A stretch of 64,000 nucleotides of DNA, from the NCBI RefSeq assembly GCF_900186865.1, contig NZ_LT906480.1:1134001-1198000 (forward strand). The letters are read 5' to 3'. Below are positions 46,995-48,906 of this stretch, in pieces. The position numbers and the translations under genes were made by a program. Below the pieces are notes generated by a model, which had not been told where the DNA came from, did no database searches, and saw only the letters and a program-made list of their open reading frames with translations. Origin of the DNA: Stenotrophomonas maltophilia (GTDB lineage Bacteria; Pseudomonadota; Gammaproteobacteria; Xanthomonadales; Xanthomonadaceae). The first letter of the stretch is position 1. Each line of letters starts with the position of its first letter.

Positions 46995-47061
46995 GTAGGG
47001 TTTTTCCTACATCACGTCGGGTATTTGGCTGGCTTACGGAAATCCGGGAAACCGATAGGCT
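46995..47061 (+). promoter_or_regulatory. Putative promoter and operator of the comEA-like gene
   Basis: CTTACG (47033-47038) and TAGGCT (47056-47061) are separated by 17 bp and could be the -35 and -10. About 30 bp upstream lies the inverted repeat GTAGG-GTTTTT-CCTAC (46995-47010), a candidate operator. Its layout (5-6-5) resembles sites of NarL/LuxR-type response regulators, but no binding protein can be named from sequence. Confidence 0.45.
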
Positions 47062-47141
47062 GTGTGCATGTGGTGACGGACACTGTTTCTGCCGACGGGA
47101 TTGCCGGTCGGGGCGGCCAGAATCACAAGGAGATACACGTT

Positions 47142-47468
47142 GTGCCTTGGTTTGTCGTGTTGAGGGCACTGGTGCTGGTCATGGGGATCGCTGGGGCGCA
47201 TGCCGCCGAACCGATCGACATCAACCGCGCCGATGCCCAGGCGCTGCAGCAGGGATTGACGATGGTCGGAGCCGCCAAGGCCGAGGCGATCGTTGAGCAC
47301 CGGCGCAGACACGGCCCGTTTCATCGCGTCGAGGACCTGACGCAGGTGAAGGGGATAGGGAAAGCAATCGTCGAACGGAATCGACAGCGGATCACCGTAG
47401 GCAACAGGTTGTTGCCGGCGGATCCGGTACCCGGATCGGTACCGGTGCGAACCGTACCGAGGCGCTGA
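47142..47468 (+). CDS. ComEA-like helix-hairpin-helix protein (GTG start)
   Basis: A 108-residue secreted protein: signal peptide MPWFVVLRALVLVMGIAGAH plus A, then a tandem HhH DNA-binding domain (IDINRADAQALQQGLTMVG; FHRVEDLTQVKGIGKAIVERN, motif VKGIGKAI). The GTG at 47142 is fixed by AAGGAG 9 bp upstream; the open frame before it lacks a ribosome-binding site. ComEA binds incoming DNA in the periplasm in natural transformation, which fits with pilT/pilU in the same window. The small-RNA candidate follows immediately and may share its transcript. Confidence 0.88.
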   Translation: MPWFVVLRALVLVMGIAGAHAAEPIDINRADAQALQQGLTMVGAAKAEAIVEHRRRHGPFHRVEDLTQVKGIGKAIVERNRQRITVGNRLLPADPVPGSVPVRTVPRR

Positions 47469-47469
47469 C

Positions 47470-47740
47470 AGCAGGAATCGTCGGAACCGGCAGGAAGCTG
47501 GTTCAGCGGTCACGGACAGGACGGCCGTGACCACCGACCGCCGCAGGACGCGGCACCAATCACCAGGATGGTGGCATCACAGACCTGTGGAAGGGGCTGA
47601 GATACAAGCAGGACAGACGCGGCCGCGTGCAGGATGCAACGCTACCCCCACAGCGCAGGATGCGAGGGGGCGGCAGCAGGCCGACAAGGACGTAACGATT
47701 GCCCGGTACGACACATGGCTGTGTCGCCGGGCAGTTTCAT
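47470..47740 (+). ncRNA. Candidate CsrB/RsmZ-type sRNA that titrates CsrA/RsmA
   Basis: About 230 bases after the comEA-like stop contain twelve GGA triplets, nine of them AGGA. Six AGGA motifs occupy the loops of predicted hairpins: AACCGGC/GCTGGTT around 47492; GGTCACGG/CCGTGACC around 47518 (loop ACAGGA); CCGC/GCGG around 47545; CACC/GGTG around 47565; GCGTGC/GC-A-ACGC around 47631; CCCCC...CGC/GCG...GGGGG around 47657. A further ACAAGGACGT at 47685-47694 matches the CsrA consensus. The region ends in the strong hairpin TGCCCGG-TA-CGACACA/TGTGTCG-CCGGGCA (47700-47733) and a T-rich stretch. Hairpin loops with GGA plus a terminator are the hallmark of Csr/Rsm RNAs. The 5' end may be its own start or a cut in the comEA mRNA 3' UTR. 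Confidence 0.75.
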
Positions 47741-47745
47741 TTCCG
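47700..47745 (+). terminator. Intrinsic terminator of the sRNA candidate
   Basis: Two stacked 7-bp stems (TGCCCGG/CCGGGCA and CGACACA/TGTGTCG, two-base bulge, loop TGGC) followed by GTTTCATTTCC. The T-tract is broken but the stem is very stable. Confidence 0.8.
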
Positions 47746-47820
47746 GCGCCTGGTTTTGCCGCGGCCACCACGGGCCGATGGTGTACGGTGGCCGCACCGC
47801 ATGGAAAGGACCCCCGCTGG

Positions 47821-48906
47821 ATGCTCGCGCTCCGCCCCACCACCCTGATGCTCGCCCTTGCACTGGCCCTGCCGCTGCTGGCCCATGCCGCTGCGCCGAC
47901 AGCGGCTGCCAAGCCCACGGCTGCCGCAGCCAGCAGCGCTGAAGTGCGCGGGCCGACCGACCTCAAGCCGGGCGAATACCTCTGGCATCCGGAAATCTCG
48001 CCGACCGGCCCGATCGTGCTGGTGGTCAGCCTCGATGAGCAGCGCGCCTACGTCTACCGCAACGGCATTGCCATCGGCCTGACCACGATCAGCTCGGGCA
48101 AGGCCGGGCACGAGACGCCGACCGGCGTGTTCACCATCCTGCAGAAGGACAAGGACCACAGGTCCAACCTCTACAACAGCGCGCCGATGCCGTACATGCA
48201 GCGGCTGACCTGGGACGGCATCGCCCTGCATGGCGGCAGCCTGCCCGGGCATCCCGCCTCGCACGGCTGCGTGCGCCTGCCGCAGGCCTTCGCGCAGAAG
48301 CTGTTCAGCGAAACCCAGCGCGGCGATACCGTGGTCGTGGCCGATGCCAAGAGCTCACCGATGACCCTGGCCTATCCGTCGGTGCTGGCGCCGGTGAACG
48401 CGCGCGGCCAGGCCCTGCCGGAGGCCGAGGGCGGAGCCCCGGCACAGGCCTGGTGGGACGACAGCGCGGCGCCGGCCGGGCAGGTCGGCATCCTGGTCAG
48501 CCTGCACGACCAGCGCCTGTACGTGCTGCGCGATGGCGTGATGATCGGCGAGTCGCCGCTGAAGGCTGACGCCCTGCCGGCGTTCCAGGGCACCACGCTG
48601 TTCGTGATGGGGCAGGGTTACAGCGACACCCCCAGCCCGCTGGACGTGAACCAGCGCCTGCACCAGTGGACGGCCTACCCGTTGCTGGGCCAGGACCGTG
48701 CCCAGGCCACGCCGGACCTGCTGGCCACGCCCTCGCTGCCGATGGCGCTGCCGCCCGATTTCGCCCGCCAGCTGTACCAGGTGCTGGTGCCGGGCACGAC
48801 CCTGCTGGTGACCTCGCTGCCAGCGGTCCGCCCAAGCCCGGCTGAATCCGGAATGCAGCCGGTCTTGGAATCCGAGCCGCCAGGGTCCACCCTCAAGGGC
48901 AACTGA
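47821..48906 (+). CDS. YkuD-family L,D-transpeptidase
   Basis: A 361-residue secreted protein. The signal peptide is LALALALPLLAHA, followed by an Ala-rich linker and a YkuD domain (about residues 65-190) with the active-site motif ALHGGSLPGHPASHGCVRLP (His about 137, Cys150). The C-terminal half (from about 230) holds a second, degenerate YkuD-like start (GQVGILVSLHDQRLYVLRDG) with no HxxxSHGC motif. Family members make 3-3 crosslinks or attach proteins to peptidoglycan. I start at the ATG at 47821 (GAAAGG upstream); the frame is open back through the sRNA region, which I do not consider coding. Confidence 0.9.
   Translation: MLALRPTTLMLALALALPLLAHAAAPTAAAKPTAAAASSAEVRGPTDLKPGEYLWHPEISPTGPIVLVVSLDEQRAYVYRNGIAIGLTTISSGKAGHETPTGVFTILQKDKDHRSNLYNSAPMPYMQRLTWDGIALHGGSLPGHPASHGCVRLPQAFAQKLFSETQRGDTVVVADAKSSPMTLAYPSVLAPVNARGQALPEAEGGAPAQAWWDDSAAPAGQVGILVSLHDQRLYVLRDGVMIGESPLKADALPAFQGTTLFVMGQGYSDTPSPLDVNQRLHQWTAYPLLGQDRAQATPDLLATPSLPMALPPDFARQLYQVLVPGTTLLVTSLPAVRPSPAESGMQPVLESEPPGSTLKGN

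Follow-up and report, generated by a model that had tools for sequence, protein, structure and literature searches.

RsmA-titrating RNAs and the region downstream of comEA

CsrB, in its general design, is an array of repeated GGA hairpin loops. According to papers on CsrA/RsmA in Xanthomonas, that genus has no known CsrB/rsmB homologue (PMC7286519, PMC3937308). What has been described, in Xanthomonas campestris (Xcc), is RsmU (sRX061), an RNA cut from the comEA 3'UTR that starts 25 bp past the stop codon and is found as separate short RNAs of 77 and 117 nt (PMC7694677). By the same account, RsmU binds RsmA in gel shift and co-immunoprecipitation experiments, and in Xcc without rsmA the RNA is undetectable and comEA mRNA less stable; its authors write that the RNA occurs "in no other bacteria", i.e. 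that it is confined to Xanthomonas. RsmW of Pseudomonas aeruginosa, an RsmA-binding RNA with 7 GGA from the 3'UTR of PA4570 (PMC4950607), resembles the RNA considered here in its 3'UTR origin and differs from it in its host gene.

Our window is a stretch of 64,000 nt from Stenotrophomonas maltophilia (NZ_LT906480.1, positions 1,134,001 to 1,198,000), in which an earlier note had read positions 47470-47745 as a CsrA/RsmA-titrating RNA and possible relative of RsmU, a reading that the comparisons below support at the level of sequence. The region lies directly 3' of comEA (47142-47468, plus strand), a DNA-uptake gene whose 108-aa product matches TIGR00426 (ComEA HhH region) with 78.7 bits against a cut-off of 53.1 and whose start codon is probably the GTG at 47142. 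From the comEA stop codon to the end of the terminator there are 273 nt (47469-47741) which, given that terminator, are presumably transcribed as the comEA 3'UTR. The terminator is intrinsic: a hairpin (47701-47732) runs into T-rich sequence (together 47701-47742, plus strand), and 12 of its 13 stem pairs are invariant in 31 sequences. We annotate an expanded RsmU-type RNA at 47469-47745 on the plus strand, with a provisional 5' end. Between 47470 and 47745 there are exactly 12 GGA, nine of them AGGA, as first counted; they stand at 47474, 47483, 47493, 47514, 47519, 47546, 47566, 47589, 47611, 47632, 47658 and 47688.

Many of these motifs are presented in hairpins, all on the plus strand. Hairpin 1 (47484-47504, 8 bp) carries the loop AGGAA, hairpin 2 (47508-47532, 8 bp) the loop ACAGGACGG, hairpin 3 (47540-47554, 5 bp) the loop AGGAC and hairpin 4 (47560-47574, 5 bp) the loop AGGAT. 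Hairpin 6 (47625-47642) is TGC-AGGAT-GCA with a bulged extension, and hairpin 7 (47643-47672) is CGC-AGGAT-GCG atop a CCCC/GGGG stem. The six AGGA loops with clean stems that had been described are better given as four clean and two imperfect: the loops at 47492, 47516, 47545 and 47565 are closed by perfect stems of 4 bp or longer, whereas those at 47631 and 47657 have just 3 bp beside the loop, followed by a bulge or internal loop. Further along, 5' of the terminator and outside the drawn helices, the predicted ACAAGGACGT site is indeed present (47684-47693, plus strand); we take it to be close to the CsrA consensus, and it forms part of a 3' core common to Xanthomonas.

How unusual is such an array? 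On the plus strand of the 64 kb, the ten 230-nt segments densest in AGGA all belong to the comEA 3'UTR (7-9 AGGA), while the minus-strand maximum is 4 AGGA per 230 nt. When the 228 nt 5' of the terminator are dinucleotide-shuffled, at least 12 GGA are reached in 11 of 1000 shuffles (mean 7.1) and at least four GGA in clean hairpin loops in 22 of 1000 (mean 1.1). The excess in this single sequence is therefore modest, suggestive rather than overwhelming, so that the case rests on comparative evidence.

Conservation, covariation and kinship with RsmU

A ComEA search returned a match in all 91 genomes of the genus, and we analysed 90 loci, leaving out one genome (85% complete; G036) with a weak ComEA match. 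All 90 loci keep 7-21 GGA within 300 nt past the stop codon, at ComEA identities down to 43%; in the first 140 nt they have 6-11 GGA (mean 8.3) against a TCC mean of 0.44. In a chosen set of 34 representative UTRs, no triplet is as frequent as GGA, and GGA outnumbers GAG, which has equal composition, in every one (totals 417 versus 110; the plus strand of the whole window has 815 GGA and 629 GAG). Of the 43 triplets that occur 40 times or more in these representatives, GGA also has the largest share in hairpin loops (39% versus 23% overall).

Poor conservation of the GGA loops had been named beforehand as grounds for giving up the reading; the outcome favours the reading. Among 31 aligned UTRs of the S. 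maltophilia clade, seven of the 12 GGA occupy the same columns in all 31 sequences, and the other five do so in 52-87%; GGA is retained at 0.87 against 0.76 for other triplets (p 0.03), a modest difference. On the same alignment we scored a structure drawn by hand from the window's copy. Overall, 95.6% of cells are paired (84% in hairpin 2), and 14 pairs change on both sides, a number reached in none of 500 shuffles (mean 7.9), while sliding the partner gives at most 6 such pairs. Most of the signal comes from hairpins 1 and 2, where 5 of 8 pairs each change on both sides. Hairpin 3 contributes one of its five pairs, the other four being invariant, as are the four counted pairs of hairpin 4; the outer stem of hairpin 7 shows compensatory changes. 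Three helices are invariant and hence uninformative; in the terminator just one pair shows variation. Not every pair holds: 17 of 31 sequences fail to form one pair of hairpin 2, and 13 of 27 one pair of hairpin 7. The region thus combines multiple conserved GGA in hairpin loops with covarying stems, which is what marks out CsrA-titrating RNAs.

We rejected a coding reading of the region, as the 31-UTR alignment contains single-base gaps and two of the three frames in the window have stops. The third frame, that of the open reading frame 47527-48906, is open in the window's UTR and in 31 of 48 UTRs with a script-set length of 260-285 nt, mostly near-identical copies. Taken alone, this open frame does not exclude coding, which is disfavoured because of the single-base gaps and the covariation.

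The alignment also reveals a near-invariant block, GGTGGCATCACAGACCTGTGGAAGGGGCTGAGATA (47570-47604, plus strand), which contains one GGA and which in the S. maltophilia clade is conserved above most of the surrounding hairpins. CsrA binding alone is an insufficient explanation for this conservation. One could imagine a base-pairing small RNA in which the block, standing out as it does from most hairpins across the 31 sequences, acts as the seed for an mRNA and the GGA motifs are secondary. Yet the block is, by eye, absent from Xanthomonas and from Stenotrophomonas with short UTRs, where GGA richness is nevertheless present, and the Xcc work reports that RsmU does not bind Hfq in vitro (PMC7694677). 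We regard base-pairing as the principal function as very improbable.

Whether this RNA is kin to RsmU had been raised as a question. To compare the two we used R1, a covariance model that covers the final ~118 nt and was built from 29 rows, all from Stenotrophomonas, and ran it on the window and 52 of 171 comEA loci. In the window it matches 47625-47739 on the plus strand with 121.4 bits, the window's copy being among the sequences that built it. The search over Stenotrophomonas and Xanthomonas that had been proposed as a check gave a clear outcome: R1 matches all 12 Xanthomonas comEA 3'UTRs, with E-values from 1.2e-19 to 4.3e-17 (Xcc 8004 itself is not among them). Weaker matches are found at loci of Pseudoxanthomonas, Luteimonas and Lysobacter. 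At E <= 0.01 there was no match in this run at loci of Lysobacter gilvus (L156), Silanimonas (L150) and a Lysobacteraceae MAG (L139), nor at ten loci from outside the family.

RsmU and the RNA of Stenotrophomonas thus have in common their place in the comEA 3'UTR, the strand, GGA motifs, a rho-independent terminator and the 3' core GCCGACAAGGACGTR just before it, and the same covariance model recovers both. They differ in size, RsmU itself having 117 nt (PMC7694677) and S. maltophilia-type UTRs 269-278 nt, and in the four AGGA hairpins that the Stenotrophomonas form has 5' of the modelled core. Judged by synteny, by the recovery of the Xanthomonas locus with a model made from Stenotrophomonas only, by intermediate forms in other genera and by covarying hairpins, the comEA 3'UTR RNA is a homologue of RsmU, and the question can be answered in the affirmative. 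In Rfam, the best match within 47000-47900 is CsrB (RF00018), whose gathering score of 71 bits it misses by far with 21.7; no family reaches its gathering score in the window. CsrB/RsmB likewise has GGA hairpin loops and an intrinsic terminator, but is a stand-alone gene, whereas the Stenotrophomonas RNA sits in a 3'UTR. With the CsrB gathering score missed, the RNA may work like CsrB while being filed, by homology, with RsmU.

How far does the RNA reach? Across 149 genomes of the family (six of them Stenotrophomonas), R1 matches in 50, at 52 places and in 24 of 54 genera; all 41 places with known comEA position lie 0-182 nt 3' of comEA on the same strand. Considering comEA loci of the other genera of the family, 32 of 57 (from 56 genomes) have a match at E <= 0.01 directly 3' of comEA and on its strand, a count that excludes one terminator-only and one antisense match; 25 are without an accepted match. 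Outside the family but within the order, R1 matched none of 40 comEA loci, drawn from 53 strong non-family ComEA places. GGA richness follows the same family boundary as R1: family loci average 5.5 GGA versus 1.9 TCC and other families 2.65 versus 2.60, and GGA exceeds TCC at 45 of 57 family loci versus 17 of 40 other-family loci. A universal feature of the family was considered and rejected, given that at 19 of the 57 family loci the first 140 nt contain fewer than 5 GGA.

These comparisons also bear on the notion that the array merely reflects the base composition of a G-rich strand outside coding sequence, or Shine-Dalgarno-like runs, and has no CsrA role. The shuffles described above, in which 12 GGA are occasionally reached, lend it some colour; the consistent excess of GGA over GAG, the contrast between families, and covariation together with homology to an RNA known from experiment to bind RsmA all speak against it, and we find it scarcely credible.

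In the S. maltophilia genome, R1 under stricter filters finds the comEA site only. A pattern of three CAGGA has 73 matches genome-wide versus 19 for the reversed control, four of the 73 in the comEA 3'UTR. Of the other clusters, six were inspected as candidates for a second Csr RNA, which may yet exist: two (L306, L297) fall within long same-strand open frames, one (L308) inside a long open frame on the opposite strand, and three (L281, L283, L285) near gene starts or ends. Small CAGGA clusters stand shortly before gene starts at genome positions 1133788-1133838 (L285, just before the window) and 901350-901385 (L283). Separately, a record titled Bacillus subtilis SK7B5 (L122) contains a Stenotrophomonas-like comEA locus and is probably mislabelled or contaminated.

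The RNA as found in Stenotrophomonas is considerably enlarged. Comparing UTRs, those of Xanthomonas (n=12) have 142-188 nt and 7-11 GGA, the S. maltophilia type (of the length given above) 11-14 GGA, and the S. rhizophila type 293-312 nt and 16-21 GGA, so that the UTR in the latter two clades is about twice the usual Xanthomonas length (script-set lengths are overlong for the short-UTR species at L072, L073, L076, L078, L083, L086, L089 and L090, where a later hairpin was taken). In three Pseudoxanthomonas UTRs (L136, L147, L152) and one further family genome (L183), the RsmU-type core occurs twice in tandem. The tandem cores in the three Pseudoxanthomonas loci suggest that growth of the GGA array has likely been repeated, and the spread of short forms suggests that the change ran from short to long.

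An inverted repeat upstream of comEA

About 130 bp 5' of comEA lies an inverted repeat, GTAGG-gttttt-CCTAC (46995-47010), which we treat as a candidate regulator box. Of the Stenotrophomonas loci, 88 of 90 have GTAGG-N6-CCTAC, as do all 12 from Xanthomonas and 3 of 40 from other families. The exact repeat has 2 copies in the S. maltophilia genome versus 18 for the reversed control, the second copy lying inside a long open frame that by eye is RHS-like. Away from comEA the repeat is rare in the genus: over 41 genomes it occurs at 68 places versus 395 for the control; 39 of the 68 are at comEA, which is the sole place in 22 genomes, while comEA lacks the repeat in two (G016, G085). At the surveyed family loci the repeat also goes with the UTR: if a UTR counts as GGA-rich when it has 5 or more GGA and these outnumber TCC by 3, 17 of 18 loci with the repeat have a GGA-rich UTR versus 17 of 39 without it (Fisher p 3e-4, which is not independent evidence of function because the loci are related). 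We rejected the idea that the repeat belongs to the promoter of the divergent M20 peptidase, as the peptidase stands upstream at 36 family loci without the repeat. Since the peptidase occurs without the repeat and the repeat accompanies GGA-rich UTRs, the repeat tracks the UTR better.

Could this be a GacA box? The box is TGTAAG-N6-CTTACA according to PMC4950607. The comEA repeat resembles it in being an inverted repeat with a six-base spacer and, in part of its copies, in showing TGTA-G; it differs at one symmetric position, and the outer T is absent from many copies, the window's included. Upstream of comEA the canonical TGTAAG-N6-CTTACA was not found, GTAGG-N6-CCTAC standing there instead. 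The best GacA candidate is a response regulator (gene at genome position 2000574) whose top NCBIfam model is UvrY/SirA/GacA, at 224 bits against a cut-off of 280, the next best paralogue reaching 150 bits. GacA-type control of comEA through the inverted repeat is thus a hypothesis, resting as it does on a resemblance between boxes and a regulator below the cut-off. For RsmW, only a weak GacA site ~830 bp upstream is described, and its levels go up in a gacA mutant (PMC4950607).

A probable route from comEA mRNA to RsmA titration

The S. maltophilia genome that encodes this RNA also encodes the protein that a CsrA-titrating RNA requires, in a single CsrA/RsmA locus (91.3 bits); the RsmA is intact and canonical (NF002469, 113.9 bits against a cut-off of 73). 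We think it probable that comEA mRNA ends in an enlarged RsmU orthologue and that the freed RNA titrates CsrA/RsmA. Transcription would start at the comEA promoter and stop at the terminator, after which the 3'UTR would be cut off, or survive, as an RNA of up to ~270 nt. Through its AGGA hairpins, four of them clean and two imperfect, and its ACAAGGACGT site, this RNA would be able to bind several RsmA dimers and so lower the level of free RsmA in the manner of CsrB/RsmZ, and binding would probably protect the RNA as well. That RsmU is undetectable and comEA mRNA less stable in Xcc lacking rsmA fits such protection. By analogy with Xcc, we expect processing from comEA mRNA, RsmA binding and dependence on RsmA to apply in Stenotrophomonas too; titration strong enough to matter there is something we infer only. 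The larger form would be expected to titrate more strongly than the short one.

The same rsmA result is compatible with a role in cis: RsmA, by binding the GGA array, might stabilise comEA mRNA and help process it, so that competence follows RsmA and titration is a side effect. The published report notes that loss of RsmU had no effect on the phenotypes tested in Xcc, which include virulence, HR and swarming (PMC7694677). Near the start of the gene, CACAAGGAG (47124-47132, plus strand) overlaps the comEA ribosome-binding site; as a possible CsrA site, it might keep translation of comEA down. The motif CACARGGAG is found in 17 of 18 aligned Stenotrophomonas comEA leaders, the remaining one reading CACACGGAG. 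If stability of the mRNA were all, however, deletion of the 3'UTR in Xcc should have done more than reduce comEA mRNA slightly (PMC7694677), the 16-21 GGA of the S. rhizophila-like clade seem more than a stability tag needs, and RsmU would hardly be found as separate short RNAs. We judge a chiefly cis-acting element, with titration as a by-product, unlikely and favour titration by the freed RNA.

Two further results from Xcc qualify what titration is likely to achieve. Overexpression of RsmU mimics the rsmA mutant in part, not its whole phenotype (PMC7694677). A link to virulence, which the earlier note had envisaged, is not borne out by loss of the RNA in Xcc, effects there being reported for overexpression only. 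Moreover, a mutant in which four predicted motifs were changed from GGA to AAU retained RsmA binding and activity (PMC7694677). Counted from nt 26, the 12 Xanthomonas orthologues (e.g. L164; Xcc 8004 is not among them) have 5-8 GGA, whereas four motifs were mutated, so that binding and activity in that mutant may be due to GGA sites left intact. This offers a possible account of an odd published result.

Our results show that RsmU-type RNAs extend beyond Xanthomonas to many genera of its family, and that the opportunistic human pathogen Stenotrophomonas has a much larger form, for which we provide exact RNA coordinates and a candidate upstream control box. We did not find this RNA of Stenotrophomonas in the open-licence PMC literature on RsmU/Csr RNAs and on Stenotrophomonas small RNAs; the transcript may already be among the 60 small-RNA candidates listed for S. 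maltophilia (Roscetto 2012, cited in PMC4485184). A more far-reaching idea, which we offer tentatively and with more doubt than confidence, is that in many Lysobacteraceae comEA mRNA also serves as the principal Csr switch, perhaps even the sole one. In this scheme, comEA would be driven by a GacA/UvrY-type regulator via the diverged GTAGG-N6-CCTAC box, and the 3'UTR, roughly doubled in length and with more hairpins in Stenotrophomonas, would free the CsrA/RsmA regulon as DNA uptake begins. If this were true, the comEA 3'UTR would supply the missing CsrB/RsmZ counterpart of these bacteria.
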